From positions 1-30,463 of the forward strand of contig JAMCSN010000106.1 in NCBI GenBank assembly GCA_023381535.1: 30,463 bases of DNA. Reading direction: 5' to 3'. Source of the stretch: Bacteroidota bacterium (GTDB lineage Bacteria > Bacteroidota > Ignavibacteria > Ignavibacteriales > Melioribacteraceae). This document shows positions 2,398 through 27,337 of the stretch, piece after piece (within the stretch, counting starts at the first letter, position 1; every line of letters starts with the position of its first letter). Position numbers and translations under genes: made by a program. The notes below the pieces were generated by a model, which was given only the letters and a program-made list of their open reading frames with translations, made no database searches and was not told where the DNA came from.

Positions 2398-4449
2398 TTA
2401 CAGCTTGTACAACTCCTTCATCATATCTTCAAATTGAGCAAAGTACAAGGCTTGTTCAGGATCGCTCAAAGCATTCGGCGGATCGGGATGAAATTCAACC
2501 ATTATTCCGTGAGCGCCGACAACTTTTGCAGCTTTAGCCAACGGCACAACTTTGTTTCGTTCACCGATAGCATGTGACGGGTCAACAATTAAAGGAAGGT
2601 GTGTAAGTTCTTTGAGTACCGGTATTGCGCTAAGATCAAGCGTGTTTCTTGTTGCGGTTTCAAATGTTCTGATACCGCGCTCGCACAAAATTACTTGTCT
2701 GTTGCCTTGAGCCAAAATATATTCCGCGGCGTTTAACCATTCGTTTATCGATGCACTCAATCCGCGTTTCAACATTACCGGTCTGTGAGTCTTGCCAACT
2801 TCTTTTAGCAGCGCAAAGTTTTGCATGTTGCGCGCGCCGATTTGCAGTATGTCGGCAGTCTTCGCCACTTCTACAACTTGATCGGTGTCCATTACTTCAG
2901 TGATAACTGGCAAATCGTAGTATTTGCCGGCATCAACCAACAATTTTAATCCCTCGAAACCCATTCCTTGAAAACTATACGGTGAGGTTCTGGGTTTGAA
3001 ACAACCGCCGCGTAAAATTTGTGCGCCGTTCTCTTTTGCTTCTAGTGCACACTTCATTATCATTTCCGGATTCTCAACAGAACATGGTCCGGCAATAACA
3101 ACAAAATTATTTCCACCAATTACAACGTCTTTAACCTTTATGATTGTATCATCGGCTTTGTAATCGCGGCTCGCAAGTCGGTAGCTCTGGCTTTTGGATT
3201 TTTTTGTAGAAGTTGTTTTCTTCCCCGGTGCTTCTGCCGGAATTTCTTTTTCAGTTTGGTCGGTTAGAATTTTCGGGTACTCCAGTTTCGTCCGCGCCAG
3301 TTCTTGTGAAGGATAGCTTCCCAGAACTTTCAGAAAACGCGTATGCTGACCAAGTTCATCTAAAACATTTTGAATTGTTTCTTCAATAATGTTTCCCTCG
3401 AAATCAAGATAGAACATTTCTTCCCATGGATTGCCCATGATCGGACGGGATTCCAATTTCGTCAGGTTAACATTGTATTTTCTAAAAACATTTAACGCTT
3501 CCACCAAAGAACCCGGAGTGTGCGATGTTGCCATTACAATCGACGTTTTACAACGAATACGATGATCAACTTCATGCGGCTTTCTAGTTGCAATCAAAAA
3601 TCTTGTATAATTCTCTGATTGATTTGCAATGCTGGTTTTCAAAATCTTCAGACGGAATAATTTTGCCGCTTCCTCACTTGCAATTGCTGCGTGTGAAAGA
3701 TTTCCATCGTCCTTAATCTTTTGAACTGACATTGCTGTATCTGTAAAGTACTCTACCGATGCACTCGACAACGTTTGCAAGAATTTACTGCATTGCAGTG
3801 CAGCCTGGTAATGTGAAAAAACTTTTTTGATTTTTTGAAGCGGAATATTTTCGAGAGCAACAAGACAATGTTTTACTTGAAATTTTTCTTCACCAATAAT
3901 TGAAAGTGTTGTGTGAAGCAGTAAATCATAAACTTCGTTTATTCCGCCGGATGTTGTATTCTCGATCGGCAGAACTGCAAAATCTGCTTCTCCTTTTTCA
4001 ACCGCATCAACAACTTCATCAAATCTATCTTTGAATAAGAAGTGAAGGTTAACTTTTTGATGAGCAAAGAATTTGTGAGATGCTAAAAAACTGTACGATC
4101 CTTCGATTCCCTGTATGGCAAGCGTTATCGATTTTTTCTTCTCGCCTCTTGTGTTCAGTTTCGTCTGAACATAATTCTGCTGCAGCCGAACCGAGTCTTC
4201 AATTATTTCGTAAAAAACTTTTGAGAGAAAGTGCGAGTCCAATCCTTTTTTCTTTCCCGACTTAACTAGTTTATTGAGTAAGTCGGATTCCCTTTTTTGG
4301 TCTCTTATCGGACTTTGAGAAGTTTCTTTAGCCAAAATTACTTTTCCGGATAAATTCCTTCTCTCTGCTAATAGCGAAATTAGTTTTTCATCAACCCGAT
4401 TGATGTTTTCTCTAAGTTTATTTATTGGTTCTACTTTTTTCTTTGCCAT
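2398..4449 (-). CDS. Fused chorismate mutase - prephenate dehydratase - DAHP synthase
   Basis: This 683-residue protein joins three steps of aromatic amino acid synthesis. Residues about 10-95 are an AroQ-type chorismate mutase, with Arg13, Arg30, Lys41, the RDQKRE segment at 49-54 and a Gln-rich end of the last helix (VRLQQ). Residues about 108-295 are prephenate dehydratase ([23 protein letters not shown], the family TRF motif). Residues about 300-378 are an ACT domain with the phenylalanine-binding ESRP motif ([12 protein letters not shown]). After a Lys/Thr/Ser-rich linker, residues about 435-683 are a KDO8P/type I-beta DAHP synthase ([42 protein letters not shown]). All key motifs are present, so all three activities should work. 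The ACT domain suggests Phe could feed back on both the first and the branch-point step, which is inference. The gene is not linked to other aromatic genes here. Confidence 0.92.
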
Positions 4450-4550
4450 TTATGGATCAATTAATTGTAAAATTTGAGGCAGGAAAGTAAGAAAATTAGA
4501 ACGATAAATAAAGCTTAAACGAAACTCTAACCGTGTGTTGCTGAATCAAA

Positions 4551-4581
4551 TTGACAGAAAAAAGGAAATGTGGTAAGTTTG
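4551..4581 (+). promoter_or_regulatory. Candidate promoter of the FeS/NrfD/cytochrome/sensor operon
   Basis: A perfect TTGACA (4551-4556) is followed after 17 bases by TAAGTTTG (4574-4581). The latter fits the TAnnTTTG minus-7 element described for Bacteroidota, while the former fits a classical minus-35. The site lies 74 bp upstream of the 4655 start, whose ribosome-binding site CGGAGGTAAT is very strong. The divergent pheA-like gene starts at 4449, so both promoters share this 205-bp gap. The call is by eye only. Confidence 0.4.
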
Positions 4582-4654: not shown

Positions 4655-5569
4655 ATGGCAAACCAATCCCGCAGAGATTTCTTGAAAACTGCTGCCATAG
4701 CTGGAGCCACTCTCACCGGAATTTCTTCCAATCCAACGAAAGCAGCACAACAAAATGTATTATCTGAAAATCGAATGGGTGTATTAGTTGATACGACTGT
4801 ATGTATAGGATGCAGAAAATGTGAATGGGCATGTAAGACCGCACACAATTTACCAACTCAACCGCTTGAAAGTTACGATGATAAGAGCGTGTTCAAATCT
4901 ATGAGACGACCAAATGATAAGGAACTGACTGTGATCAATGAGTACCCGGCAAGAAGCTGGGATGATTATCCCACAACAGTCAAAGTGCAATGTATGCACT
5001 GCGAAAAACCGGCGTGCGTCTCCGCATGTATAGTCGGAGCTTTTTCAAAAGTAGAAAACGGATCTGTAATTTGGAACGGTGACAAATGTATAGGATGCAG
5101 ATACTGCATGGTTGCTTGTCCATTCCAAATTCCAGCATTCGAATTTGAGAAAGCGCTCAAGCCGGATATTAAGAAATGTGATTTTTGTTTTGATCGAACC
5201 AAAGAAGGAAAACTTCCCGCTTGCGTAGATATTTGTCCTAACGAAGTTCTCACTTACGGACCGCGGGAAGAATTAGTAAGAGTTGCTCACCAAAAAATTC
5301 AATTGTATCCGAAACGGTATATCAATTACATCTACGGTGAAAATGAAGTCGGGGGAACTTCGTGGATGTATTTGGCGAGCCGGCATTTCAAAGATTTACA
5401 ATTTCCGGCATTGGGCGGAAGCCCCGCTCCCGGTGTTAGCGAAGCAATTCAACACGGAATCTTCGCGTACTTCGTTCCACCAATTGCTCTTTATGCTTTG
5501 TTGGGCGGCGTAATGTGGATTAACAAAAACAGAAAATCTTCTGAGTCAGATTCGGAGGGACAGTCATGA
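4655..5569 (+). CDS. Tat-exported membrane-tethered 4x[4Fe-4S] ferredoxin subunit (HybA-like)
   Basis: The 304-residue protein begins with a twin-arginine signal (RRDFLK at 6-11, then a hydrophobic stretch), so it is folded before export and works in the periplasm. Sixteen cysteines form four cluster motifs: Cys50/53/56/60, 113/116/121/125, 145/148/151/155 and 175/178/190/194. A hydrophobic helix near the C-terminus (about 267-286) anchors it to the membrane. This arrangement matches HybA of hydrogenase-2 and related FeS subunits of NrfD-type quinone oxidoreductases. Its role should be to pass electrons between the NrfD-like protein encoded next and the 13-haem cytochrome. No hydrogenase, formate dehydrogenase or molybdopterin subunit is nearby, so the partner enzyme is probably the cytochrome itself. 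The stop overlaps the next start (ATGA). Confidence 0.9.
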   Translation: MANQSRRDFLKTAAIAGATLTGISSNPTKAAQQNVLSENRMGVLVDTTVCIGCRKCEWACKTAHNLPTQPLESYDDKSVFKSMRRPNDKELTVINEYPARSWDDYPTTVKVQCMHCEKPACVSACIVGAFSKVENGSVIWNGDKCIGCRYCMVACPFQIPAFEFEKALKPDIKKCDFCFDRTKEGKLPACVDICPNEVLTYGPREELVRVAHQKIQLYPKRYINYIYGENEVGGTSWMYLASRHFKDLQFPALGGSPAPGVSEAIQHGIFAYFVPPIALYALLGGVMWINKNRKSSESDSEGQS

Positions 5570-6801
5570 GCGAAAACTTAAAACCCACTCCGATATCACA
5601 CAAATTTTTTACGCCGGGAGTTATTTTTTTAAGTGTCCTTGCTGCTAACGGGCTAGTATTTCTTTTAGGAAGATTTCTATTCGGACTTGGAGCGATAACA
5701 AACCTCGACAATCAGCATCCGTGGGGAATATGGATCGGAATTGATGTTGCCGCTGGCGTTGCTCTTGCCGCCGGAGGTTTTACAACCGCCGCGCTCGGTC
5801 ACATAATGCACAAAGAAGAATACCACGTGATTGTTCGTCCCGCGTTACTTACTGCAATGTTGGGATACACTTTAGTCGCCGTGAGCGTTATGATCGACCT
5901 TGGACGATACTATTACATTTGGCATCCGCTCATCATGTGGAACGGAACTTCAGTTTTATTCGAAGTCGGTATGTGCGTTATGATTTACCTATTTGTACTG
6001 TACATCGAATTTCTGCCAATTGTTACCGAACGATTTATTGGAAGAGTAAATCTTCCGGGCATGTTAAAACGATTTAACAACACCATCGATAAATTTCTGC
6101 GTGTTCTAGACAAGGGATTGAACAAAACAATGTTCGTCTTCATAATTGCCGGAGTGGTTTTGTCATGTCTGCATCAATCATCTCTTGGAACTTTAATGGT
6201 AATTGCCGGACCGAAGATGCATCCACTTTGGCAGACACCTATTCTTCCGCTTTTGTTTTTGCTTTCGGCAGTTTCTGTAGGTTTTCCAATGGTCATAATG
6301 GAATCGATTGCAACTTCCAAATCATTTGGTTTGAAGCCGGAAACTCATATACTTTCTAATCTAGGAAGTATGGTTGCACCGTTACTTGGGATTTATCTCT
6401 CATTCAAAATCGGCGATATGGTTATACGGCAAACATTTGTTTACTTAACCGAATTCAACACGGCAAGCGTGATGTTTGTTATCGAAGTCGTAGTCGGCAT
6501 AGTAATTCCGTTACGAATGTTTCTATCAAGAGAGATTTCAAAATCACCGACGGGATTGTTTATAGCTTCCATGCTGGTGATCTTTGGTGTGCTTCTGAAC
6601 AGAATCGACAACTTCATTGTTGCTTACACACCGCCATATCAATTTAATACATACTTCCCTTCAATCGGAGAAATTTCTGTAACTGTTGGATTTGTCGCGC
6701 TGGAAATTTTATTCTTTAGAGTGATGGTAATGATTTTTCCAATCGTAAGTTTACCATATGTATCTACATTGCGAACGAAATTTTCGATCAAGGGGGTGTA
6801 G
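5566..6801 (+). CDS. NrfD/HybB-family quinone-reactive integral membrane subunit
   Basis: The 411-residue protein has about nine to ten transmembrane helices. It shows NrfD/PsrC/HybB features: the first helix is followed by NLDNQHPWGIWIGIDVAAGVALAAGG, and later come the LGRYYYIWHP segment and the CLHQSSLGTLMVIAGPKMHPLWQTP segment that is typical of HybB. Family members exchange electrons with menaquinone or ubiquinone and lack bound haem. It overlaps the FeS gene by 4 bp (ATGA), and the cytochrome starts immediately after its stop, so the three proteins should form one complex. The direction of electron flow (quinol oxidation or quinone reduction) cannot be read from sequence. With only cytochromes as partners, quinol oxidation towards the periplasm is more likely. 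Confidence 0.9.
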   Translation: MSENLKPTPISHKFFTPGVIFLSVLAANGLVFLLGRFLFGLGAITNLDNQHPWGIWIGIDVAAGVALAAGGFTTAALGHIMHKEEYHVIVRPALLTAMLGYTLVAVSVMIDLGRYYYIWHPLIMWNGTSVLFEVGMCVMIYLFVLYIEFLPIVTERFIGRVNLPGMLKRFNNTIDKFLRVLDKGLNKTMFVFIIAGVVLSCLHQSSLGTLMVIAGPKMHPLWQTPILPLLFLLSAVSVGFPMVIMESIATSKSFGLKPETHILSNLGSMVAPLLGIYLSFKIGDMVIRQTFVYLTEFNTASVMFVIEVVVGIVIPLRMFLSREISKSPTGLFIASMLVIFGVLLNRIDNFIVAYTPPYQFNTYFPSIGEISVTVGFVALEILFFRVMVMIFPIVSLPYVSTLRTKFSIKGV

Positions 6802-6802
6802 T

Positions 6803-7960
6803 ATGAAAAAGATAATTCTAAGTTTGATCGTCGCAATACCTTTATTGATTTCCGCTCAAACAAAAGTTGGCGATAACCACGCGAGTACGCTGGGACTTAA
6901 ATGTCTGACGTGTCATTCATGTCCAATTCCGACAAAAGAAAATCCGTGCTTAAAACCGTGTCCGCGTGAAGGTATGATTCGCATAGACCAAAGACCTGAA
7001 GACGGACCCAAAGTAATTATAATAGATAAATTCAAAAAACAATCCGATCTGTACATGCCGGTTCGCTTTACACATTTGGCTCACGCAGAAATGTCCGAGA
7101 TGGGCGGCGGTTGCAGAATGTGCCATCATTACAATCCACCGGGAAACGTAATCGGCTGTTCCGAATGTCATGAAGTTTCAAGAAAACGCGCTGACGTAAG
7201 CAAGCCCGATTTAAAAGGCGCTTATCACCGCCACTGTATGGATTGCCATCGCGCATGGACAGGCGGCACCGATTGTAATTACTGCCACTTGCCTAACGGA
7301 ACTAATCGACTTCTACCGGAAAAGCCAAAAGCCGATGAACCGAAAGGAAGAATTCACCCAAAGGTTGAAACGCCAGAAAAAATATTATTCAACACAAATA
7401 CAAGCTACGGCAAAACGGTTTTGTTCCGACATCAGGAACATAACAAAGTGTTTGGATTCGACTGCTCGGATTGTCATTCAAACGAAAGCTGCGTCAAATG
7501 TCATAAAGCTCAAAAGACAATTGAAGTTTCAAAATTATCGGCGGCAGACAAACATAAAAAGTGTTCTGAATGTCACGATACAAAATCATCGTGCAATATG
7601 TGTCATTCAAACAGAGAGACAAGCGCTTTCGATCACATGGCAAAAACCGGTTTTGACAATTCAAAATTCCACAGCGAACTTGCGTGTATTAGATGCCATA
7701 CGACAAAAGGCACATTTACAGGCTTGACTACCGATTGTAGTTCATGCCACGGTATTTGGACGCAGAGTAATTTCAATCATAAAATAACCGGCGTAGTTCT
7801 TGATGAAACACACGCGGCAGCCGAATGCAAAGATTGTCATCAAGAGAAAAACTTTGCCAAACCGGTTTGCACAAATTGTCACGATGATAAATCGTTCCCG
7901 GCAAATGTTCCGGGCAAACTTGTCCCGAAGGGATGGATTCCCATTAAGAAGAACAAATGA
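6803..7960 (+). CDS. Periplasmic 13-haem cytochrome c
   Basis: The start is the ATG at 6803, one base after the previous stop. It has a purine-rich GGGGGTG just upstream and gives a proper signal peptide (MKKIILSLIVAIPLLISAQ). A frame reaching back to 6758 is an overlap artefact. I count thirteen CXXCH haem sites in 385 residues, with many extra His residues as distal ligands, in the style of multihaem cytochrome c3/c7 domains. The N-terminal region contains additional cysteines (CPIPTKENPCLKPCP, after the first CLTCH), which is unusual and might bind another cofactor. There is no C-terminal anchor. It should take electrons from the HybA/NrfD-like pair and hand them to other periplasmic cytochromes. 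The stop overlaps the sensor kinase start (ATGA). Confidence 0.9.
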   Translation: MKKIILSLIVAIPLLISAQTKVGDNHASTLGLKCLTCHSCPIPTKENPCLKPCPREGMIRIDQRPEDGPKVIIIDKFKKQSDLYMPVRFTHLAHAEMSEMGGGCRMCHHYNPPGNVIGCSECHEVSRKRADVSKPDLKGAYHRHCMDCHRAWTGGTDCNYCHLPNGTNRLLPEKPKADEPKGRIHPKVETPEKILFNTNTSYGKTVLFRHQEHNKVFGFDCSDCHSNESCVKCHKAQKTIEVSKLSAADKHKKCSECHDTKSSCNMCHSNRETSAFDHMAKTGFDNSKFHSELACIRCHTTKGTFTGLTTDCSSCHGIWTQSNFNHKITGVVLDETHAAAECKDCHQEKNFAKPVCTNCHDDKSFPANVPGKLVPKGWIPIKKNK

Positions 7961-9849
7961 GAACTGTAAAGAAATTATTTGGGAAGATTAGTCTAAAACT
8001 CATTTGGGTTGTAAGCGCAACCGCGATTACGATCATAGGAGTTTATTCCTATTTCAATATCAAATCTCAAAGCGATGTTCTGTTGGCTGAAGTTGAGCGT
8101 CACGCAAATCAATTGAGCGAGACAATCAAAAACAGCACACGCTACGGAATGCTTTTAAATCAGCGCGAAAGCATTCATGAAATAATAAATACCATTGGAA
8201 AAGATCCAGCGATAAACGGTGTTCGCATTCTTAACAAGGAAGGCGAAATAATTTATTCCACGCGTAAAGATGAAATCGGCAGAATGCTGAATAAGCAAGC
8301 CGAAAGCTGTTACGCTTGTCATGCAGAAAATAAACCGTTGGAAAAATTAGCTATTAAGGATAGAACAAGAATTTTCAAAGTGCATGCAGATTCATCGCGA
8401 GTACTTGGTGTAATCAATCCGATCTATAATGAAAGCTCGTGTTACGACGCCGATTGCCATGCGCATTTGAAAAGTGCAAAGGTGCTTGGAGTTCTGGATG
8501 TAACGATTACTCTCAATGAAGTTGATGCACAAATCAAGAGAAATGAAATTCAAGAACTCTTGTTTGCTCTTGTTGCAATTTCCGCTATCGGTTTTATAAT
8601 CGGATTTTTTGTTAAACGCTGGGTTGATCGACCGGTCAAGGAATTGGTGAAAGCTACCGATCAGGTATCAGCGGGCAATTTAAGTTACACGATTAAGAAT
8701 CTCAGCGATGATGAATTAGGCGCACTCGGAAAGTCATTCAACAACATGATCAAGAAACTTGATGAAACAAGTCAACAGCTTTATCAATCGACCAAGATGG
8801 CATCGCTGGGTCAGCTTGCCGCTGGTGTTGCGCATGAAATCAACAATCCACTCACCGGCGTGTTAACATACAGCAGTTATTTATTGAAGCGCACAAAAGA
8901 TAATCCGCAAATGCAGGAAGACTTAAATGTGATTGTCCGCGAAACAATGAGAAGCAGGGAAATAATTAAAGGACTTCTTGATTTTGCTAGACAATCAACG
9001 CCAAAGAAAAGTTCGATCGACTTAAACGAAATCATTAACCGCGCATTGGCAGTCGTACACAATCAGTTAAAGCTGAACAACATCGCACTTGAAAAAGAAT
9101 TTGATTCATCGCTACCGAAAATAACTGCCGATACAAATCAAATTCAGCAAGTGTTTCTAAATTTATTTGTCAACGCGATTGATGCAATCGGACACGATGG
9201 AACAATTAAGGTGAACACTTCACAGATTAGTTTGTCGCCCAAAGGTATCACGCAAATTAAAAGTGCGGTTTGTCCCAAGATGCATAACTTGATTGACTCG
9301 GGACACAAAATCGGCGGCATGTCCTCTCTTCGAATGAAGATCAAATCCAACGGCAACACGGGCTTCGTTCATCTCGATCCGATTTACGGAAGCCACCGGC
9401 ACTTTTTTGAAATATCATTTGAGAAGAAAGATGATATGACTTTATTGTGCCCCACTTGCGATCTTCCGTTGATTGACAAAAACAACCGATGTCCCGAATG
9501 CGGCGGTCCGACGTACAAAATTCAAATTCCCAACCAAGGATTTATTGAAGGCTGCGCAACATTCAGAGATAATTGGCAGAGGTGGGAATTAGTTGACCGC
9601 GCCGGACAGAAAAAATTTATTGAGGTGAAAGTTCACGATTCCGGCTGTGGAATTCCGCCGGAAAATATTAACAAAATTTTTGAACCGTTTTTTTCCACCA
9701 AAGGTCAACGCGGAACCGGCTTAGGGCTTTCCGTTATTTGGGGAATTCTCGATAACCATAACGGTTCAATTTCAGTTCAAAGTGAAGTTGGAAAAGGAAC
9801 AACATTTTCAGTAAGACTTCCGCAAGGCGACTTTACAAAAAATATTTGA
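7957..9849 (+). CDS. Haem-c sensor histidine kinase with Zn-ribbon insert in its ATPase domain
   Basis: The 630-residue protein has a transmembrane helix at about 13-33, a periplasmic domain at 34-200, a second helix at about 200-219, HAMP at about 220-275, HisKA with the phospho-acceptor His293 (VAHEINNP), and HATPase_c to the end. The periplasmic domain has a CXXCH motif (Cys118-Cys121-His122) and a CX4CH motif (Cys162-Cys167-His168), so it probably binds one or two c-type haems and senses redox state, NO or O2. Between the N box (NLFVNAIDA, about 402-410) and the G1 box (DSGCGIP, 561-567) lies an extra segment of about 130 residues. It carries a likely zinc ribbon (Cys498/Cys501, Cys512/Cys515) and further Cys/His (439, 443, 450). 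Its start overlaps the cytochrome stop, and its stop overlaps the next regulator (TGATG). Confidence 0.9.
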   Translation: MRTVKKLFGKISLKLIWVVSATAITIIGVYSYFNIKSQSDVLLAEVERHANQLSETIKNSTRYGMLLNQRESIHEIINTIGKDPAINGVRILNKEGEIIYSTRKDEIGRMLNKQAESCYACHAENKPLEKLAIKDRTRIFKVHADSSRVLGVINPIYNESSCYDADCHAHLKSAKVLGVLDVTITLNEVDAQIKRNEIQELLFALVAISAIGFIIGFFVKRWVDRPVKELVKATDQVSAGNLSYTIKNLSDDELGALGKSFNNMIKKLDETSQQLYQSTKMASLGQLAAGVAHEINNPLTGVLTYSSYLLKRTKDNPQMQEDLNVIVRETMRSREIIKGLLDFARQSTPKKSSIDLNEIINRALAVVHNQLKLNNIALEKEFDSSLPKITADTNQIQQVFLNLFVNAIDAIGHDGTIKVNTSQISLSPKGITQIKSAVCPKMHNLIDSGHKIGGMSSLRMKIKSNGNTGFVHLDPIYGSHRHFFEISFEKKDDMTLLCPTCDLPLIDKNNRCPECGGPTYKIQIPNQGFIEGCATFRDNWQRWELVDRAGQKKFIEVKVHDSGCGIPPENINKIFEPFFSTKGQRGTGLGLSVIWGILDNHNGSISVQSEVGKGTTFSVRLPQGDFTKNI

Positions 9850-10640
9850 TGAAAGAACACACTAACATATTGATAATTGATGACGAAGATGTTGTGATCA
9901 ACTCGATTTCCAAAATTGCCGTGATGGAAGGTTACACGGTTGATTCCGTTGGCGATGCAAATGCTGCGCTGGAAAAAATTGCATCAAGTGAATTCGATCT
10001 TATAGTATGCGATATTATGCTGCCCGGAATGGACGGATTTCAATTTCTTGCTGCGCTTGAAGCCAAACATATCGACACACCGGTCATAATGACTACGGGA
10101 TATTCAACAATTGAGAATGCCGTTACTTCACTTTACGCAGGTTCAATCGATTTTATTCCGAAACCATTTTCTGTTGATGAAATGACCGGCGTTATCCATC
10201 GTGGCATGAAATACAGCTTGTTGATGAAGCAGCGCAAAGCTAACGATGAATCGGTAATCATTGTTCCATGTCCGGCAAAATATTTTAGACTTGGTTACTC
10301 AAGCTGGATGAATAAAGAGCCGGACGGATCGGTGGTTATCGGCGCAACGGATTTATTTGTAAAGACGCTCGATCAAATTCAGCGCATCGAACTTTTCAAT
10401 ATTTCCGATACACTGACGCAGGCAACTTCAGCAGTTACATTTGTTTGTGAAAACACATTCGTGCATCAACTGTATTCTGCCATCAGCGGAACAATCATTG
10501 CAAGAAACGAACGACTTTTAACCGAGCCGGAATTATTGGAAAAGGATCCTTACTTCGACGGATGGATTTACAGAATAATTCCGAGCGAGCTCGAATACGA
10601 AATGAAATTATTAATACCGTGCAGTTCAGATAGAATTTAA
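9849..10640 (+). CDS. Response regulator with C-terminal GcvH-like domain
   Basis: Residues 1-125 (263 total) are a standard receiver: acidic Asp11/Asp12, phospho-acceptor Asp55 (CDIMLPGMDG), Thr83 and Lys105 (PKPF). Residues about 143-258 are not a DNA-binding domain. They follow the glycine-cleavage H protein from end to end: SSWMNKEPDGSVVIGATDLF, then IQRIELF, then YSAISGTIIARN, then LLTEPELLEKDPYFDGWIY. At the position of the lipoylated lysine (about twelve residues before the Gly of ISG) I see Thr203, so the carrier arm appears to be lost. The domain may be a protein-docking or lipoyl-enzyme-binding output. The gene overlaps the kinase stop by one base, so its ATG at 9849 is well supported. 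A second, related regulator follows 25 bp downstream. Confidence 0.88.
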   Translation: MKEHTNILIIDDEDVVINSISKIAVMEGYTVDSVGDANAALEKIASSEFDLIVCDIMLPGMDGFQFLAALEAKHIDTPVIMTTGYSTIENAVTSLYAGSIDFIPKPFSVDEMTGVIHRGMKYSLLMKQRKANDESVIIVPCPAKYFRLGYSSWMNKEPDGSVVIGATDLFVKTLDQIQRIELFNISDTLTQATSAVTFVCENTFVHQLYSAISGTIIARNERLLTEPELLEKDPYFDGWIYRIIPSELEYEMKLLIPCSSDRI

Positions 10641-10665
10641 GTTTATCAAACTAAGGAGAACTATT

Positions 10666-11820
10666 ATGCCGCTCTTCATTTTAGCAGTAATCATATTCAT
10701 AATAGCCGATGTAATTATTAGATACGTTATCAAGTCACTAAATGAAAAGAAGACCCGCAAAGAGCGAGAATCAATTTTGAAAGAAAGTGTAAAAGTTGAT
10801 TTCAGTAAAGAGGCTGTTTCGCTTAAACGTGCAGAAGTGCCAAATCCTCAAGCCAGAATCTTATGTGTTGATGACGAAGATGTAATTCTCGACAGCTTCA
10901 GAAAAATTTTGGTGCTGGATGGTTATTCTGTTGATACAGTTAACTCCGGCCCCGAAGCGCTCAGTCTTATTAAATCACATCACTATGATTTTGTTTTCAC
11001 AGATTTGAAAATGCCGGTAATGGACGGCGTTGAAGTAACAAAATCTGTCAAGTATCTCCGTCCCGACATTGATGTTATAATCATCACCGGTTATGCAACT
11101 GTGGAAACTGCAGTTGATTGTATGAAACTTGGCGCAATGGATTACGTTCAGAAACCTTTCACAGAAGATGAGCTTCTTGGGTTCACCAAGAAATCATTGA
11201 TCAAACGTCAGGATCGAGTCCAGAAGCAGCTCAAGCCGCGTGTGCATATAACTCATCTTACCGAAAAAGAGAAATTGAACGTTGGAGAATTTGCAATTCC
11301 CGGCGGAGTATTTATTTCAGAAGGACACTGCTGGGCATCGGTATCACAAGACGGTTCAGTTAGAGTTGGAATAGACGACTTTGCTAAAAAGCTCATTGGA
11401 AAAATCGACGACATAGAATTTCCTAATCTTGGTATGAGTATTTCGATCGGACAACCGTTATTCATTTTGAAGCAAGGCAAGAAATCAATTTCGTTCAACT
11501 GTCCGGTAAGCGGACAGGTGAAAAAAGTTAACAATGAACTCGGCGACAATTTGGACGCACTAGATTTTTCGACCTATGAAAAAAATTGGATCTGCATAAT
11601 CGATGCAGATAAATTGGAGAACGAATTACCGCAACTCAAAATCGGCAACAGCGCCGTTTCGTTCTACCAAGACGAGATAGACAAATACTTGAAACAAATA
11701 AAAGAATTGCTTGGCAAAGAAAATCAAAAGAAAGAAAGCGTTGAAATTCTTTGGGGTCAGCTGGAAAAGCTCGAAGAAAAAGATTGGTATATTGTAACAG
11801 GAGAATTTTTTAAGAAATAG
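10666..11820 (+). CDS. Membrane-anchored response regulator with GcvH-like domain
   Basis: The 384-residue protein starts with a transmembrane helix (MPLFILAVIIFIIADVIIRY) and a basic linker, which tether it to the inner membrane with the rest in the cytoplasm. Residues about 63-185 are a receiver (Asp69/Asp70, phospho-acceptor Asp113 in TDLKMPVMDG, Lys163). Residues about 205-315 match the H protein of glycine cleavage: GHCWASVSQDGSVRVGIDDF, AKKLIGKIDDIEFP, then CPVSGQVKKVNNEL. Aligning on PVSG puts Lys272 at the lipoyl-lysine position, but the surrounding sequence (LKQGKKS) is unlike the usual ESVKA. The last 60 residues are a charged helix. No DNA-binding domain is present. A good ribosome-binding site (AAGGAG) precedes the ATG. 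It resembles its upstream neighbour, so the pair probably arose by duplication. Confidence 0.87.
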   Translation: MPLFILAVIIFIIADVIIRYVIKSLNEKKTRKERESILKESVKVDFSKEAVSLKRAEVPNPQARILCVDDEDVILDSFRKILVLDGYSVDTVNSGPEALSLIKSHHYDFVFTDLKMPVMDGVEVTKSVKYLRPDIDVIIITGYATVETAVDCMKLGAMDYVQKPFTEDELLGFTKKSLIKRQDRVQKQLKPRVHITHLTEKEKLNVGEFAIPGGVFISEGHCWASVSQDGSVRVGIDDFAKKLIGKIDDIEFPNLGMSISIGQPLFILKQGKKSISFNCPVSGQVKKVNNELGDNLDALDFSTYEKNWICIIDADKLENELPQLKIGNSAVSFYQDEIDKYLKQIKELLGKENQKKESVEILWGQLEKLEEKDWYIVTGEFFKK

Positions 11821-11845
11821 TAAATCTTCAATCTAAACTATCAAG

Positions 11846-11878
11846 AAGAGAAAGGAATTTCCTTTCTCTTTTTGTTTT
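11846..11878 (+). terminator. Rho-independent terminator of the sensor/oxidoreductase operon
   Basis: A perfect 12-bp inverted repeat, AAGAGAAAGGAA / TTCCTTTCTCTT (11846-11857 and 11859-11870), runs directly into a T-rich tract (TTTGTTTT). It begins 26 bp after the stop of the second response regulator and separates that operon from the cytochrome island. Confidence 0.85.
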
Positions 11879-11886
11879 AAACGACG

Positions 11887-11915
11887 TTGACAAATTCAGT
11901 CAATCTGAATATTTT
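11887..11915 (+). promoter_or_regulatory. Candidate promoter with a dyad in its spacer, upstream of the cytochrome island
   Basis: A perfect TTGACA (11887-11892) is separated by exactly 17 bases from TATTTT (11910-11915). The spacer holds a hyphenated palindrome, ATTCAG-N5-CTGAAT (11894-11910), which looks like an operator for a dimeric regulator. If used, transcription would begin near 11922 and leave a leader of about 180 bases before the ATG at 12102. In the rest of the 281-bp gap I see no gene. The call is by eye, and no regulator for it is encoded in the window, because the nearby response regulators lack DNA-binding domains. Confidence 0.4.
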
Positions 11916-12101
11916 GTGACCAGATATTAGTGTCTTTTATCTGATATTTTAGAATAAGCTTTCTCATTTTCGGTAAATTTTCTTCAAAATTTGTTCATTA
12001 TTTATTGACCGATACGGATGTTGCTGAAATTTCAACATTCCTCAGAAGCATATTTGTGCATAGTTCTTGCATGCCGAACACAATCATCAAGAATATATAA
12101 A

Positions 12102-14051
12102 ATGAAAAAATCCGTAATCAGTTCTTTTTTTGTTCTCTTTTTTGCCGGATGTCTTTTTGCCCAGAGTAAGAGTGATCAGGTTTGTCTTGAGTGCCATGGT
12201 GATAGAACCTTTACAACAACAAGAGACGGTAAAGTTGTTTCACTTTTCGTCAATGGAAAATCATTTGCCGGGTCGGTTCACGAAGAAATAAGTTGTACAG
12301 GCTGTCATTCGGATGTAAATCCAGAGGAACTTCCTCATCCGGAAAAACTGAGCAAGGTTGATTGTGCATCGTGCCATGAAAAACCTGTTCAGCATTACGA
12401 AAGAAGTCTTCACGCACAAGCATTGAAGGCCGGCAAAGCGTTAGCCCCGACTTGCGTAACATGTCATACCAAACATGAAATTCTCTCATCGAAAAATCCG
12501 AAGTCGAGAACTTTTGTTATGAACATTCCTTCGCTTTGCGGTCAATGCCACAAAGAAGGAACCCAAGTTTCCAAACTGGTTAATCCAGAAGAAAGAAAAG
12601 TTTTATCTGATTACTCGGAATCCATCCACGGCGAAGGTTTATTTAAAAGAGGTTTGATTGTTACAGCAGTTTGCACAAGCTGCCACACATCTCACGATAT
12701 ACTGCCGCACACAAATCCGGCATCAACAATCAATAGAAATAATATTGCAACTACTTGTACTCAATGCCATAGAGAAATTGAAAAAGTTCACCTCAAAGTT
12801 ATTCGCGGGGCACTTTGGGAAAAGCAGCCGAACAAAATTCCGGTTTGTATCGATTGCCATGCACCGCACAAAGTGCGAAGAGTTTTTTACGACGACAGTT
12901 TCCCGGATGAGATGTGCATGAAGTGTCACAGCGATAAAGAACTTCACAAAGTTGTCAACGAAAAATCTGTATCACTGTATGTTAACTATGATGAATTTAA
13001 AACTTCCGCGCACACAGTTAACCAATGTATCAAATGTCACACAAATATTAGCAAATCAAAAAGTCCGGTTTGTTTGAACAGCGGCAAGGTTGATTGTTCT
13101 ATCTGTCATACAACCCAGGTGGACGATTACAATATTAGTATTCACGGTACAAAACATTATGCCGGAGATACCCACGCTCCGTATTGCACGGATTGCCATA
13201 CAAAACACAACATGCAGGCGAAGAAAAATACAGACTCACCTACTTTTGCACGAAACGTTCCCGAACTTTGCGGCAAGTGTCATCGTGAAGGAAAAAACAT
13301 TGCAATTGCTATCGATGAGAGCAACAGAGGAATCGTAACAAGTTACAGAGAAAGCATTCACGGAAAAGGTTTGTTGCAGAGCGGTTTGTTGGTAACGGCA
13401 ACTTGTGTTAATTGTCATTCGAGTCACAAAGAGTTACCGCCGAACGATCCGCGTTCTACAATTAATCCGAAAAACATTGCAACAACATGTGCGCAATGTC
13501 ATTTAGGAGTTTATGAACAATTTCAAAACAGCGTTCATAGTCCCACTGTAACCAAAACGTATAAGAAACTTCCAGTCTGTAACGATTGTCATTTCTCACA
13601 TGAAATTAATCGTGTTGACCTTAAGGATTTCCGGCAATCAATAATTCTTCAGTGCGGAAGATGCCACGAAGATGTTTCTTCAACTTATTTTCAAACGTTT
13701 CATGGTAAGGTTTCAAAACTTGGTGATGCCGGTGCAGCAAAATGTTTTGACTGTCACGGTTCTCATAATATTTTACCAACCGATAATCCAAAATCAACTC
13801 TGAGCCGCCAAAACATTGTGCAGACTTGCAAGAAATGTCACGAAAATTCAAACAGAATGTTCGTCGGTTATTTGACTCATGCGACTCACCATAACAGAGA
13901 CAAGTATCCTTACCTGTTTTACACTTTCTGGTTTATGACAATTTTATTGGTTGGTACATTCACATTCTTCGGGATTCATACTTTGCTGTGGCTTCCAAGG
14001 GCGTATAAAGATAAAAAAGCAAAACAGTTGAAAAATAAAAGAGAAAATTAA
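12102..14051 (+). CDS. Membrane-anchored 19-haem cytochrome c
   Basis: The start is the ATG at 12102, which opens a signal peptide (MKKSVISSFFVLFFAGCLFAQ). The frame reaches back to 12018 but without an export signal. I count nineteen CXXCH motifs in 649 residues, with His-rich spacing of the kind seen in cytochrome c3/NrfH-like multihaem proteins (repeated S.H..GL motifs such as SIHGEGLFKRGLIVTAVC). A single C-terminal helix (FWFMTILLVGTFTFFGIHTLLW) anchors it in the inner membrane, with the haems in the periplasm. The sequence contains an internal duplication: the part around 75-280 is repeated at about 310-500. The stop overlaps the cytochrome b start by one base (TAATG), so these two should form a quinol:periplasm electron-transfer module. 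Confidence 0.88.
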   Translation: MKKSVISSFFVLFFAGCLFAQSKSDQVCLECHGDRTFTTTRDGKVVSLFVNGKSFAGSVHEEISCTGCHSDVNPEELPHPEKLSKVDCASCHEKPVQHYERSLHAQALKAGKALAPTCVTCHTKHEILSSKNPKSRTFVMNIPSLCGQCHKEGTQVSKLVNPEERKVLSDYSESIHGEGLFKRGLIVTAVCTSCHTSHDILPHTNPASTINRNNIATTCTQCHREIEKVHLKVIRGALWEKQPNKIPVCIDCHAPHKVRRVFYDDSFPDEMCMKCHSDKELHKVVNEKSVSLYVNYDEFKTSAHTVNQCIKCHTNISKSKSPVCLNSGKVDCSICHTTQVDDYNISIHGTKHYAGDTHAPYCTDCHTKHNMQAKKNTDSPTFARNVPELCGKCHREGKNIAIAIDESNRGIVTSYRESIHGKGLLQSGLLVTATCVNCHSSHKELPPNDPRSTINPKNIATTCAQCHLGVYEQFQNSVHSPTVTKTYKKLPVCNDCHFSHEINRVDLKDFRQSIILQCGRCHEDVSSTYFQTFHGKVSKLGDAGAAKCFDCHGSHNILPTDNPKSTLSRQNIVQTCKKCHENSNRMFVGYLTHATHHNRDKYPYLFYTFWFMTILLVGTFTFFGIHTLLWLPRAYKDKKAKQLKNKREN

Positions 14052-14908
14052 TGACTGAAAATAATCAAGAACATAACGGAAAGTATTACGAGCGCTTTGA
14101 CGCTTATTCCAGGTTTCTTCACGTGCTGGTTATTATCAGCTTTATCTCTCTTGCAACAACTGGAATGGTAATAAAATTTTCCGGCGTTGGAGTTTTTCAA
14201 ACCCTATCAAAAATTTTGGGCGGTTACGTAGTTACGGGTTTTATTCACAGAACAGCGGCAATAATTACTTTCATTTATTTCTTTCTCCACATCACTTACC
14301 TGTTAAGAAAAAAGATTAAACGCGGAGTGCCCATCACGTCTTTTTTGAAAGGGGAAAACTCACTGGTCCCAAACAAAACAGATATCACCGAATTCGTTCA
14401 AACAATGAAATGGTTTTTTGGAAAAGGTCCACGACCCGCGTACGGCAGATGGACTTATTGGGAAAAGTTCGACTACTTTGCCGTTTTCTGGGGCGTTGCG
14501 GTCATCGGATTCAGCGGATTGATCTTATGGTTCCCGGAACTTTTCACTGCGATCGGTTTTCCAGGATGGTTGATAAATATTGCTACAATTATTCACAGTG
14601 ATGAAGCATTGCTTGCCGTCGGATTTATTTTTACGGTTCACTTTTTCAACACACATTTCAGACCGGATAAATTTCCAATGGACACAGTGATTTTTACAGG
14701 CAAAGTACCAGTTGAAGAAATGAAAGAAGACCGTCCGCGGGAATTTGAACAGGTAATGCAAAGCGAAGAATTGCAAAAAAAGATTTCCAATGTAGCCCCC
14801 TCACTGGCTTTAACTAAAGCGGCAAGAATTTTTGGTTTTACGGCTTTAACCATTGGAATAATTTTAATCGGGTTAATAATTTATTCTATGTTGTTCCTGT
14901 ACCAATAA
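14051..14908 (+). CDS. Di-haem cytochrome b subunit (FdnI/HydC-like)
   Basis: The 285-residue protein has four core transmembrane helices plus a C-terminal helix. Conserved His residues sit in the first helix (RFLHVLVII), the second (IHRTAAIITFIYFFLHITYLL) and the fourth (IIHSDEALLAVGFIFTVHFFNTHFRP), as in the cytochrome b subunits of Ni,Fe-hydrogenases and formate dehydrogenases. These bind two b haems and a menaquinone. Here the partner is the 19-haem cytochrome encoded just upstream, whose stop overlaps this start. The same cytochrome b fold recurs as the C-terminal half of the next gene, with the same histidine pattern. It probably oxidises menaquinol and passes electrons out to the multihaem chain. 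Confidence 0.85.
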   Translation: MTENNQEHNGKYYERFDAYSRFLHVLVIISFISLATTGMVIKFSGVGVFQTLSKILGGYVVTGFIHRTAAIITFIYFFLHITYLLRKKIKRGVPITSFLKGENSLVPNKTDITEFVQTMKWFFGKGPRPAYGRWTYWEKFDYFAVFWGVAVIGFSGLILWFPELFTAIGFPGWLINIATIIHSDEALLAVGFIFTVHFFNTHFRPDKFPMDTVIFTGKVPVEEMKEDRPREFEQVMQSEELQKKISNVAPSLALTKAARIFGFTALTIGIILIGLIIYSMLFLYQ

Positions 14909-14930
14909 TTTTGAGTATGGAGTTTATTTA

Positions 14931-17339
14931 ATGATATTGTTCCTAAAAAGAATTTTCCCGGTCGCAGTTTTTTTATTTTTTATTTTCGTTCTCGATGCCA
15001 AGCTTAGTGCGCAAGATTTCAAATGCGCGGACTGCCATGAAAATGTTATTCAGAAATCTGTTCATGATGGCGCTATCGGCTGCCAGGATTGCCACGTAGA
15101 TATAAAAAACGAAAGTCACATCGAGAAAAAGAATTATAAAAAAGTTAAGTGCGAAACTTGTCATGAAGAATATGCCGACCTGGTTAAAAGTGACATCCAT
15201 CATCGCTTAAAAGGTAAGGTAAAAAATCCGCCCGATTGCAAAGTTTGTCACGGTACTCATCAAATTACTTCCCCGCCGAAAGATAATGTTCTCAAGGTGA
15301 AAGAAATTTGCTCAAAGTGTCACGCGAGTATGGTGCTGGCAAACCCTTATCATTCCAAAGCCGTTGAGGGAAACAGATGCATTAGCTGCCACAAACAGAA
15401 TGGCTATACAAAACTTTCTCAATCGGTTCACAAAAATTTAGAATGCGCTGATTGCCATAACTTCATTTCGAACAATCTTGCAAATCATCCTAAGAATGTT
15501 GGCGCAACACAAAAAGCCGATTGTTATCTCTGTCACTCAGCTATAGCAAAAGAACATCGTGAAAGCATACACGGAATTTCCCTCAGCGAAGGTGTTGACG
15601 AGGCTGCGATGTGTTGGAACTGCCATGGTTCTCATGACATATTAAAAGTTAATGATCCGAAAAGCAAAGTGTATCCGAAAAACTTGGCACAGACATGCGG
15701 CGCTTGTCATAACAATCCGAAAATTTATAAAAACTACTCGCTAAGTATCCAAAACCCCGGCATTTTATATACTCAGTCAGTCCATGGAAAACTCGTTGAG
15801 GAAGGTAAATTAAACGCCGCAAATTGCAGCACATGTCACGGCGTTCACAATATTAAAAATCGAATTCAGCCGGGGTCAACAATTTCCAGTTTCGAAATAC
15901 CCGAAACGTGCGGAAAGTGCCACCGACAAATTGCCGACGAGTATGAAAAATCAATTCATTGGATTAGAGCAAAAGTTGGGATTAGAGAGGCTCCGGTTTG
16001 CAACGATTGCCATAGTGAACATGGAATGCAGCCGGTCAATAACCGGTTGGAAGCAAAAAAGTTACAACAGCAAACTTGTATTGTTTGTCATCAGAATCCG
16101 AAAATTGCCCAACGGTTCGGCATCACAGGCGGACAAGTAAAACAATACGAAGATAGTTATCACGGCATGGCGGTAATGCGCGGCGATAAAGAAGCTGCTA
16201 TGTGCGTCGATTGCCATAATGTTCATAAAATTTTACCGAAGGATCATCCGGAATCGTCTGTAAATCCGGCTAACATTACGGCAACATGCAGGAAATGTCA
16301 TCCCAACGCCACCGACACATTTTCAAAAAGTTATTCACATAAAACTTTAGACAATAGGGCTTCTAAAATTGAAGATGTGGTTACAACAATTTATTTCTGG
16401 TTGATCATTTCCGTTATCGGCGGAATGATCTTACACAATTTGTTAATTTTTATTTATGAAATACGAAAAAAATATCGTCATGAAAAAAGTGAAATTACAA
16501 TTCCTCGATTTACAAAGAACGAAGTCTTCCAGCATCTGCTGCTTCTAATTTCATTCATAACTCTGGCTGTCACCGGCTTTGCATTGAAGTTTCATCAAAG
16601 CTGGTGGGCAGAATTATTAACAACATTTGGATTAAGTGAAACCGTCCGTCAAAACGTTCACCGTACGGCAGCCGTTGTTATGATTGTTACAGGTATTTAT
16701 CACATTTTCTATTTGATCTTCACACCGAGAGGAAGAGATGTTTTGGTAAGCCTGCTTCCAAAATTCGATGATATTACAGAAGCGCGAGACAATATTCTCT
16801 ACTATCTGAAACTGAGAAAACAGAAACCAAAATTTGATGCATATGATTACGCTGAGAAAGCGGAGTACTGGGCACTCATCTGGGGTACAATCGTAATGGG
16901 TCTTACCGGCTTCATACTTTGGTTCCCTACTGTAGTTGGTAATTGGGCACCAGTATGGTTGATCAAAGTCAGCGAGCTGATACATTTTTACGAAGCGATA
17001 CTCGCAACGCTTGCAATTTTGGTCTGGCATTGGTTCTTCGTGATCTTTCATCCTCACGAATACCCTATGAGTGTGACCTGGATAAACGGAAGGATGTCGC
17101 TTGAAAACTACCGCCATCATCACGAAAAACATTTTAGAAGGATTGTACTTGAATGGAAAGAATACCGAGGCGGGACAAGAGACATTAAGAGAGTGAGCAA
17201 CTCTACATTGTTATTCACTTCTACACTTGAAAAAAACGGCTTAGAGCCTGATTTAATTATTCAAAATGAGATTGATGAGGATCCTGAGCTAAGAACCTGG
17301 ATAGAAGAAAAAATGAAACCAAAAACGGAGAAAAGTTAA
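14931..17339 (+). CDS. 16-haem cytochrome c fused to cytochrome b (CbcL-like)
   Basis: The protein has 802 residues. After a signal peptide (MILFLKRIFPVAVFLFFIFVLDAKLSAQ) come sixteen CXXCH motifs to about residue 470. A membrane helix at about 482-505 follows, and then a cytochrome b domain whose His pattern (VFQHLLLLISF, NVHRTAAVVMIVTGIYHIFY, LIHFYEAILATLAILVWHWFF, IFHPHEYP) matches the preceding gene. The layout is that of Geobacter CbcL, an inner-membrane menaquinol oxidase used for extracellular electron transfer, although CbcL has fewer c haems. It looks like a fused version of the 12102/14051 pair, so the two may be alternatives that work at different redox potentials (inference). A short Lys/Glu-rich cytoplasmic tail ends the protein. 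Confidence 0.87.
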   Translation: MILFLKRIFPVAVFLFFIFVLDAKLSAQDFKCADCHENVIQKSVHDGAIGCQDCHVDIKNESHIEKKNYKKVKCETCHEEYADLVKSDIHHRLKGKVKNPPDCKVCHGTHQITSPPKDNVLKVKEICSKCHASMVLANPYHSKAVEGNRCISCHKQNGYTKLSQSVHKNLECADCHNFISNNLANHPKNVGATQKADCYLCHSAIAKEHRESIHGISLSEGVDEAAMCWNCHGSHDILKVNDPKSKVYPKNLAQTCGACHNNPKIYKNYSLSIQNPGILYTQSVHGKLVEEGKLNAANCSTCHGVHNIKNRIQPGSTISSFEIPETCGKCHRQIADEYEKSIHWIRAKVGIREAPVCNDCHSEHGMQPVNNRLEAKKLQQQTCIVCHQNPKIAQRFGITGGQVKQYEDSYHGMAVMRGDKEAAMCVDCHNVHKILPKDHPESSVNPANITATCRKCHPNATDTFSKSYSHKTLDNRASKIEDVVTTIYFWLIISVIGGMILHNLLIFIYEIRKKYRHEKSEITIPRFTKNEVFQHLLLLISFITLAVTGFALKFHQSWWAELLTTFGLSETVRQNVHRTAAVVMIVTGIYHIFYLIFTPRGRDVLVSLLPKFDDITEARDNILYYLKLRKQKPKFDAYDYAEKAEYWALIWGTIVMGLTGFILWFPTVVGNWAPVWLIKVSELIHFYEAILATLAILVWHWFFVIFHPHEYPMSVTWINGRMSLENYRHHHEKHFRRIVLEWKEYRGGTRDIKRVSNSTLLFTSTLEKNGLEPDLIIQNEIDEDPELRTWIEEKMKPKTEKS

Positions 17340-21946: not shown

Positions 21947-22771
21947 ATGTCACAAACAATAACTACGCTAAATGTCCTGCTGCCTTTGCTGTACTTAACC
22001 AGCTTTGCAGTCTATCTCTATGATTTCTTCAAAGAACAGAAAGCGGTCGGCAATGTTAATAGAATTATTCTATTCATCACAATCATCGTTCACGTTTCAT
22101 ACTTGTTAGCTCTGACTGTTGAATATGATCATCCGCCGATTACAACCAAGTTCGAAATATTTTCGATCATCGCGTGTTCAATTGCATTTTCGTATTTCAT
22201 TCTGGAGCTTCTCACTGATATACGCGGAACCGGTGCATTCATAATTCTGTTCTCCGTCGTCTTTCAAGTGATTTCATCTATCTTTATTGAACCGAACTAC
22301 AAGGTGCCGGAAATCTTAAGAAACCGTTTGCTCGGTCTTCATGTTATAAGCGCGCTGCTCGGTTATTCGGGAATTATTATCTCGGCAGTTTACGGTGTAT
22401 TGTTTTGGCTTCTTTATCGAAACTTAAAAGGAAACAAGTTCGGATTAATCTTCAACCGATTGCCGAGTTTGGAGATTTTGGAAAAGCTCAGTTACTACGC
22501 TGCAGTAATCGGTTTTGTACTTTTAACGGTTGCAATAGTGATTGGAATAATTTGGCTGCCGAGCGCGTTTCCGCATTTCAGTTATTTCGATCCCAAGCTA
22601 ACAGGGACATTATTCGTTTGGCTTGTTTACGGCGTGGGAATAACAAGCAAGTGGATTGCTAATTTGTACGGAAAAAAATTCATAATTTTTTCTTTGATTG
22701 GATTTGTTGTGGCGATTGCATCATTGATAGTTACGAATTCTCTGGCTAGGACGTTTCATTCTTTCTATTAA
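21947..22771 (+). CDS. CcsA/HemX-like membrane protein
   Basis: The 274-residue protein has about eight transmembrane helices. It shows the layout of the cytochrome c assembly (CcsA/CcmC) family, with conserved His in helix positions (IIVHVSYLLAL; LLGLHVISALLGYSGIIISAVYGVLFWLLYR; a late His in RTFHSFY). I do not see the Trp-rich WWD haem-handling motif, so it is closer to HemX of Bacillus (also about 275 residues), which is encoded beside hemA and influences glutamyl-tRNA reductase levels. Here too it directly precedes hemA (9-bp gap). A role as haem-pathway regulator or in haem delivery to cytochromes c are both possible. Given the neighbouring cytochrome island, either would make sense. The start is the ATG at 21947. 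Confidence 0.75.
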   Translation: MSQTITTLNVLLPLLYLTSFAVYLYDFFKEQKAVGNVNRIILFITIIVHVSYLLALTVEYDHPPITTKFEIFSIIACSIAFSYFILELLTDIRGTGAFIILFSVVFQVISSIFIEPNYKVPEILRNRLLGLHVISALLGYSGIIISAVYGVLFWLLYRNLKGNKFGLIFNRLPSLEILEKLSYYAAVIGFVLLTVAIVIGIIWLPSAFPHFSYFDPKLTGTLFVWLVYGVGITSKWIANLYGKKFIIFSLIGFVVAIASLIVTNSLARTFHSFY

Positions 22772-22780
22772 TAGTTTAAA

Positions 22781-25825: not shown

Positions 25826-25836
25826 ACGGAGAAACA

Positions 25837-27293: not shown

Positions 27294-27323
27294 TCTTTGC
27301 GTCTCTGCGCCTTTGCGGTGAAA
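27294..27323 (-). repeat. Right imperfect inverted repeat flanking the GxxExxY gene
   Basis: The sequence begins TCTTTGCGTCTCTGCGCC and starts right after the stop of the GxxExxY gene. Its complement begins TTTCACCGC and matches the left repeat. Most differences between the two copies are G/A or C/T transitions. I see no target-site duplication outside the repeats. Confidence 0.75.
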
Positions 27324-27337
27324 GAAATGAGGTTAGT

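Follow-up and report, generated by a model that had tools for sequence, protein, structure and literature searches.

Two adjacent response regulators, RR1 and RR2, encoded on a stretch of 30,463 nucleotides (contig JAMCSN010000106.1 of assembly GCA_023381535.1, Melioribacteraceae, Bacteroidota; forward strand), carry behind their receivers a domain with the fold of the glycine cleavage H-protein (GcvH), which replaces the usual DNA-binding part. This whole stretch is referred to as the window, and coordinates are those of the window unless a locus is named. Both genes are part of a six-gene Ignavibacterial cassette, which also encodes a membrane histidine kinase with haem c motifs, an iron–sulfur (Fe-S) protein, an NrfD-family membrane subunit and a multihaem cytochrome. 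An output other than transcription is plausible and, as the pair is built into a haem-kinase and electron-transfer gene set, the respiratory machinery may itself be the target of the signal.

Receiver and H-Protein-Fold Domains of RR1 and RR2

The two genes and their parts are as follows.

9849..10640, forward strand: RR1, 263 amino acids; receiver at about 9867-10193, GcvH-like domain at about 10302-10613; no membrane helix
10666..11820, forward strand: RR2, 384 amino acids; membrane-anchored receiver, GcvH-like domain and C-terminal helical tail
10666..10737, forward strand: N-terminal hydrophobic helix of RR2; Asp15 and Arg19 unchanged across 63 aligned rows
10858..11178, forward strand: receiver of RR2, as delimited by Pfam
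11320..11661, forward strand: GcvH-like domain of RR2; lipoyl position occupied by Lys272, which the family does not conserve

The ATG of RR1 overlaps the stop codon of the kinase gene (TGATG), with a TTG at 9846 as an alternative start. In Pfam, both proteins match Response_reg (E 4e-27 for RR1 and 3.2e-30 for RR2) and GCV_H (E 1.4e-15, 57.7 bits, and E 9.4e-17, 61.5 bits, respectively, for a cut-off of 22.2). GCV_H is the only family above cut-off besides the receiver, to which RR2 adds Biotin_lipoyl. The residues required of a receiver are intact in RR1 (D11, D12, D55, T83 and K105) as well as in RR2 (D69, D70, D113, T141 and K163). Across 66 aligned rows of the RR1 family, D12, D55 and K105 do not vary and D11 and T83 are kept at 90% or more, and all five residues are invariant in the 63 rows of RR2.

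Profiles of the C-terminal domains retrieved solved H-proteins as top matches (E 8.5e-18 for RR1 and 7e-17 for RR2). AlphaFold models were obtained with a mean predicted local distance difference test score of 92.8 and a predicted template modelling (TM) score of 0.88 for RR1, and of 79.1 and 0.53 for RR2, whose GcvH domain lies mostly at 86-94 with a dip to 74-79. When these models were compared with the PDB by Foldseek, the E. coli H-protein ranked first in both cases (3a7a_B for RR1, TMt 0.86, 1.7 Å; 3ab9 for RR2, TMt 0.91, 1.7 Å). The likeness of these domains to H-protein is thus far from chance. RR1 further retains the ending KDPYFxGW, invariant or nearly so across the 66 rows, together with two cysteine residues, C141 and C258, each kept at 90% or more.

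No DNA-binding domain was found in RR1 or RR2, either by Pfam or in the AlphaFold models, a Dark_WHD hint in RR1 (E 0.16) being far below cut-off, and no enzymatic output domain scored above the Pfam cut-off. A hidden DNA-binding domain was rejected on these grounds. A preliminary description of this DNA had claimed an intact receiver and a GcvH-like C-terminal domain in both proteins, the H-protein ending in the first and an output that is not DNA-binding; all of this is upheld, and neither another fold nor a hidden DNA-binding domain turned up in AlphaFold, Foldseek or Pfam. It had made no mention of the membrane helix of RR2, of the zinc-ribbon-like insertion of the kinase or of the conserved cassette.

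The Lipoyl Position

Carrying lipoate is the main known role of the H-protein fold. Judged from the alignments, this role is unlikely for RR1 and RR2, because the lipoyl lysine is absent from RR1 and unconserved in the RR2 family. As previously described, the position is occupied in RR1 by Thr203, by ungapped count in ATG numbering (N202 in the gapped alignment), and lysine is present in only 3/66 rows of this family. Lys272 had likewise been placed correctly at the lipoyl position of RR2, but the column is not a conserved one, containing lysine in 43/63 rows and otherwise N (13), R (2), T (2), G (2) or S (1). In a smaller alignment, the lysine was found in 6/13 RR2, 1/12 RR1, 1/35 separate GcvH-like proteins and 0/5 receiver-fused proteins of a second sample, compared with 8/8 true GcvH proteins of 8 related genomes. 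The E-x-V-K context is absent around the position, and the NCBIfam GcvH scores (62.0 and 62.7 bits) do not reach the cut-off of 117. A standalone full-length GcvH is also encoded in each of the 8 cassette genomes examined.

Lipoylation as a family trait was therefore rejected, the lysine being missing in RR1 and not conserved across RR2, and with the unreached cut-off and the absent context, lipoylation is not supported as the working principle. Docking to lipoyl-handling enzymes, proposed in the preliminary description, is not supported either, the 26 window proteins scanned including no such enzyme; the neighbours are Fe-S, NrfD and cytochrome genes.

A Conserved Cassette With a Haem Kinase and an NrfD-Type Complex

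Upstream of RR1, and behind RR2, the window contains the following genes and motifs.

4655..5569, forward strand: Fe-S ferredoxin subunit, HmcB/HybA-like; Pfam Fer4_11, twin-arginine translocation (Tat) N-terminus, hydrophobic tail from residue 268
5566..6801, forward strand: NrfD-family membrane subunit, HybB/HmcC-like; Pfam NrfD 6e-20
6803..7960, forward strand: multihaem c-type cytochrome; Class III cytochrome c, weak HmcA/TmcA similarity
7957..9849, forward strand: membrane histidine kinase; HAMP, HisKA, HATPase_c in two stretches, CxxCH and CX4CH in the sensor
8308..8322, forward strand: haem c motif CYACH of the kinase, residues 118-122
8440..8460, forward strand: CX4CH haem-type motif CYDADCH of the kinase, residues 162-168
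9448..9501, forward strand: zinc-ribbon-like stretch CPTC...CPEC in the ATPase insertion of the kinase
12018..17339, forward strand: three further multihaem cytochrome or cytochrome b genes, frequent but not constant neighbours of the cassette

The reading frame of the multihaem cytochrome opens at 6758, and its start at 6803 was inferred from a signal-peptide-like stretch.

Conservation of this arrangement was assessed in 22 loci with fused receivers (L001-L022, from records named Ignavibacteria, Melioribacter, Stygiobacter or Bacteroidetes) and in 19 loci drawn from RR2-type genome matches (L202-L220), at least 3 of the 19 being shared with the first set. All six genes stand in the order Fe-S, NrfD, cytochrome, kinase, RR1, RR2 in 18/22 loci of the first set; L001, L010 and L020 begin inside the cassette at contig ends, and L014 is without the Fe-S and NrfD genes. 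In the second set, kinase, RR1 and RR2 stand together in 19/19 loci and the Fe-S, NrfD and cytochrome genes lie upstream in 18/19, the exception, L206, being on a contig that ends soon after. The kinase gene immediately precedes RR1 in all loci of both sets (22/22 and 19/19). The haem kinase and NrfD operon noted beside the pair in the window are thus borne out, and receiver-GcvH proteins co-occur with such genes across genomes, a point that had been raised for checking. One RR2 homologue, P0107, bears the name Rosettibacter firmus, an organism in culture. An RR2-type match above 250 bits was obtained in 26/395 genomes of the phylum taken as Bacteroidota from its Stygiobacter member (L007); these genomes are related, and this and the other genome counts given here are uncorrected for shared descent.

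Some loci depart from the common layout. In L014 (5163-9971), the Fe-S and NrfD genes are missing from their usual place and the cytochrome is shortened, perhaps through an assembly join. In genome G140, a variant locus that was sampled twice (L135 and L221) encodes a shorter kinase together with the two receiver-GcvH proteins. Three receiver-GcvH genes are found in L136, the third (3450-4568) lying upstream of the cytochrome, Fe-S and NrfD set of the same locus.

Among aligned kinases, CxxCH is present in 23/23 and both CxxC motifs of the ATPase insertion in 21/23. This two-CxxC insertion was found in 39/47 haem kinases from fused loci, a count that includes sample overlaps, vs 0/27 from unfused ones. 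The 8 fused-locus kinases without the full insertion comprise three second kinases (L012, L134 and L220), three retaining one CxxC (L016, L017 and L210) and the twice-sampled L135/L221.

Further downstream, the window holds a cytochrome c assembly gene and haem synthesis genes (21947-28714; glutamyl-tRNA reductase, porphobilinogen deaminase, HemD, HemE and HemN-like), with a PDDEXK_3 gene among them, a run fitting the haem demand of the cytochromes. On the reverse strand, 2398-4449 encodes a 683-residue protein joining chorismate mutase, prephenate dehydratase, ACT and DAHP synthase domains.

GcvH-Like Proteins Without Receivers

The same genome scan revealed receiver-less GcvH-like proteins of about 215-300 amino acids, which recur in other lineages in an unfused set composed of a membrane-anchored GcvH-like protein, Fe-S and NrfD subunits, a soluble GcvH-like protein, a dihaem kinase, an NtrC-type sigma-54 regulator and an archaemetzincin. 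The soluble form often bears an N-terminal Cys4 motif, CxWMxAGVxxYKLCDxxxxCxxCPFD, which is doubled in some proteins (e.g., P0311), and a C-terminal DGG is common to both separate forms (invariant in 16 and 12 rows). Pfam was used to check the sigma-54 and archaemetzincin domains in L121 and the archaemetzincin in L137, the other assignments in these modules being made by receiver score, length and motif.

Gene neighbourhoods were counted in three samples rich in unfused modules, L121-L140 (first, n=20), L151-L161 (mixed phyla, n=11) and L182-L201 (third, n=20), which were hand-chosen from match lists, so that the rates are not those of random sampling. Within 6 kb of GcvH-like genes, NrfD was found in 19/20, 6/8 and 9/17 loci and a kinase in 16/20, 6/8 and 13/17, respectively; loci without a GcvH-like protein of 200-520 amino acids were dropped (L154-L156, 3/11 of the mixed sample; L189, L191 and L194, 3/20 of the third), and fused receivers are included among 3/20 first-sample and 1/8 mixed-phyla loci. 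As a control, no NrfD, Fe-S or kinase gene was found within 8 kb of true gcvH (n=20).

The regulator and the archaemetzincin set the unfused loci apart from the 41 fused stretches (L002-L022 and L202-L221). An NtrC-type regulator lies close by in 33/41 of the former vs 1/41 of the latter, the exception being L012. A strict sigma-54 pattern was met in 28/51 stretches of the three samples, 4 of them with fusions, and in 0/20 and 0/21 fused stretches, although this pattern misses the regulator of L012. In L012, a second dihaem kinase and this regulator (10441-13392) directly follow the fused cassette, with no separate GcvH-like proteins in the stretch, an arrangement that is perhaps an intermediate or a remnant; its genome, G005, is without an archaemetzincin match. 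Archaemetzincin-type reading frames (HExxHxxGxxHC) occur in 13/20, 5/11 and 11/20 loci of the three samples vs 0/20 and 0/21 fused stretches.

At the genome level, archaemetzincin was found in a first batch in 13/13 genomes with the unfused module, 5/5 with both modules and 2/23 counted as fused-only, and both exceptions (G385 and G022) also hold an unfused module. The second batch gave 10/10 unfused genomes, of which G267, G224, G216 and G094 were classed by frame length alone, and 0/3 fused ones. Overall, 30/30 genomes with an unfused module have an archaemetzincin vs 0/24 with fused receivers only, the two exceptions having been re-sorted after the first result on finding their unfused module. 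Sigma-54 activator matches number 16-28 in each of 11 fused-only genomes and 16-25 in each of 6 unfused ones.

GcvH-like domains are found in other contexts as well. One without the lipoyl lysine ends an Fe-S/FlpD/molybdopterin-binding-like protein (L189:9607-12522 and L191:5136-8099), near genes named by eye as HdrA-like and methylene-tetrahydrofolate-reductase-like. In P0341, a GcvH-like domain and cytochrome c554/c7 domains form one chain, which is odd because its GcvH part bears the Cys4 motif typical of soluble GcvH-like proteins; this protein is possibly an assembly chimera. Database entries give the GcvH-like proteins such names as 'glycine cleavage system H protein', and these labels can mislead metabolic reconstructions.

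Descent of the Fusion Proteins

In a quick tree of 134 GcvH domains (137 columns), RR2 (19 rows) forms one group with a support of 93, inside a 43-row group with membrane-anchored GcvH-like proteins (92). RR1 (17 rows) forms its own group (94) apart from RR2, and true GcvH falls outside (92). Approximately unbiased tests on 88 rows rejected RR2 and all membrane-anchored GcvH-like proteins as an exclusive clade (p 1e-7), but did not reject a single clade of RR1 and RR2 (p 0.337), so that a single common origin of the two may be entertained. In the receiver tree, RR1, RR2 and NtrC-type receivers are separate and no donor was identified. RR2 can be read as a membrane-anchored GcvH-like protein that gained a receiver, because the layout is the same, with the receiver inserted between helix and GcvH domain. 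Since lysine-less GcvH-like proteins stand beside the same kinase and NrfD genes elsewhere, the receivers were probably joined onto pre-existing neighbours of these genes.

Proposed Mechanism and Alternatives

A mechanism can tentatively be proposed, to which we give somewhat less than an even chance, in which RR1 and RR2 serve a membrane redox complex as docking subunits under the control of phosphorylation and act on the NrfD complex. The kinase would read the redox state of the periplasm or of the cytochrome pool through its c-haems and, we infer, phosphorylate both receivers. RR2 would be held at the membrane by its single helix, probably beside NrfD, and RR1 would be cytoplasmic. The H-protein-fold domains, on which lipoate is not expected, would serve as protein-docking surfaces, and phosphorylation would alter how they pair or how they contact the Fe-S/NrfD/cytochrome complex. 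Either change would in turn affect electron flow or assembly post-translationally. Support for this mechanism comes from the fold, the intact receivers, the membrane helix, the unconserved lipoyl lysine, the linkage of the cassette genes and the separate GcvH-like proteins in a like gene setting elsewhere, together with the true gcvH control, the split in nearby NtrC-type regulators and in archaemetzincin, and the Fe-S/FlpD proteins that end in such a domain.

Several observations weigh against this mechanism. The Fe-S subunit bears a Tat signal, which in this cassette leaves mainly NrfD within reach of cytoplasmic domains. NrfD is missing from four loci (L188, L190, L192 and L193) where GcvH-like proteins accompany a soluble PAS/GAF kinase and an NtrC-type regulator, and two others (L130 and L131) have NrfD and GcvH-like proteins with no kinase nearby. 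The RR2 gene of L012 is immediately followed by another dihaem kinase and the NtrC-type regulator, and in L134 fused and unfused modules lie side by side; fusion is thus not always accompanied by loss of a nearby regulator. L018, L218 and L220 adjoin further kinase or GcvH-like genes running off the stretch, so the true figure for NtrC-type regulators near fused receivers may exceed 1/41. Finally, as sigma-54 activators are plentiful in fused-only genomes, an unlinked regulator could receive the signal.

The alternative that survives best, although we consider it unlikely, is that the GcvH-like domains form a scaffold for the kinase, binding it and tuning its activity or specificity, the redox complex being merely co-regulated and not a direct target. 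The NrfD-less loci with a PAS/GAF kinase would suit such a role, as would the restriction of the kinase ATPase insertion to fused loci. The steady presence of NrfD, near in 19/20 loci of the first sample and upstream in 18/19 fused ones, argues against it, as do the G140 locus (L135, L221), where RR1 and RR2 are fused without the insertion, and L016, L017 and L210, which keep a single CxxC.

Less probable still is a transcriptional output, in which phosphorylated RR1 and RR2 would pass or sequester the signal for a sigma-54 regulator, be it encoded nearby or elsewhere. In unfused modules the nearest receiver is that of the NtrC-type regulator, and both the gene order of L012 and the abundance of sigma-54 activators in fused-only genomes favour this view. 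RR1 and RR2 nevertheless have no DNA-binding domain, the window contains no sigma-54 motif, an NtrC-type regulator is near only one of the 41 fused stretches, and the archaemetzincin accompanying it elsewhere is missing from 24/24 fused-only genomes.

A thiol- or metal-based relay, in which C141 and C258 of RR1 would act with the zinc-ribbon of the kinase and replace the Cys4 motif of the soluble GcvH-like proteins, is distinctly improbable as the working principle. Thiol chemistry in RR1 is possible because of the conservation of both cysteines, and soluble relatives often bear the Cys4 motif, but in a pattern search the two RR1 motifs were present in only 32 and 34 of 41 RR1 proteins and RR2 is without a matching cysteine pair. 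That RR2 is a lipoylated carrier with a swinging arm gated by phosphorylation is scarcely credible: although Lys272 occupies the lipoyl position in the window protein, the lysine counts in RR2, RR1 and separate GcvH-like proteins contrast with those of true GcvH, and the E-x-V-K context is missing.

Regarding the docking mechanism in its evolutionary setting, a broader proposal, which is held with more doubt than the mechanism itself, is that of a new output class consisting of lipoate-free H-protein-fold domains, through which a haem-sensing kinase gates an NrfD complex directly. This class would have arisen when adaptors of an older, widespread module of GcvH-like, NrfD, kinase, sigma-54 and archaemetzincin genes took on receivers, the transcriptional branch being mostly dropped. 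If this is true, the H-protein fold serves as a docking module in signalling, and haem redox sensing is tied to electron flow without a transcription step. To our knowledge, direct phospho-control of a respiratory complex has seldom been proposed for bacterial two-component systems.

Comparison With Known Systems

Receiver-GcvH proteins are present in databases as domain pairs, and no published description of them was found in open-licence literature, in agreement with the preliminary description, which knew of no characterised coupling of H-protein homologues to receivers beside a haem-sensor kinase; the GcvH-like module also is apparently undescribed. RR1 and RR2 share with GcvH (PF01597) the hybrid barrel-sandwich fold, the PxSG turn and a DPYxxGW ending, and differ from it by the absence of a conserved lipoyl lysine, by scores of about 62 bits vs 117, by their fusion to receivers and by their gene neighbours. 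Like other two-component response regulators (their receivers being closest to NtrC and FixJ), they have all the phospho-acceptor residues and are encoded directly behind a histidine kinase, but their output is an H-protein-fold domain and RR2 is membrane-anchored. LbpA, which is lipoylated in the sHdr system, is likewise related to GcvH and serves a redox pathway distinct from glycine cleavage, whereas RR1 and RR2 are probably not lipoylated and no hdr genes occur among the 26 window proteins scanned.

The electron-transfer genes resemble Hmc and HybAB complexes, with a Tat-type, tail-anchored Fe-S protein, an NrfD-type subunit and a multihaem cytochrome. By NCBIfam, the Fe-S subunit scores 314.1 of the 420 bits required for HmcB and 244.5 of 263 for HybA, and the NrfD subunit 264.2 of 550 for HmcC and 358.7 of 450 for HybB (PRK10881), all below cut-off; HmcB/HybA and HybB/HmcC are nonetheless the nearest families. 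As the Fe-S dicluster subunit adjoins the NrfD subunit, they form an NrfD-type module in the broad sense. According to PMC10924467, a tail-anchored Fe-S protein and a HybB/NrfD-type quinol oxidase form a paired module, often with periplasmic cytochromes, and the hmc locus of D. vulgaris carries the regulators rrf1 and rrf2, so that regulators beside such modules are already known; a term search there found no GcvH-like partner. Another close relation is the unfused module described above, which shares the Fe-S, NrfD, dihaem kinase and GcvH-like families with the cassette, but in which the receiver is on the sigma-54 regulator and the GcvH-like proteins are free-standing.

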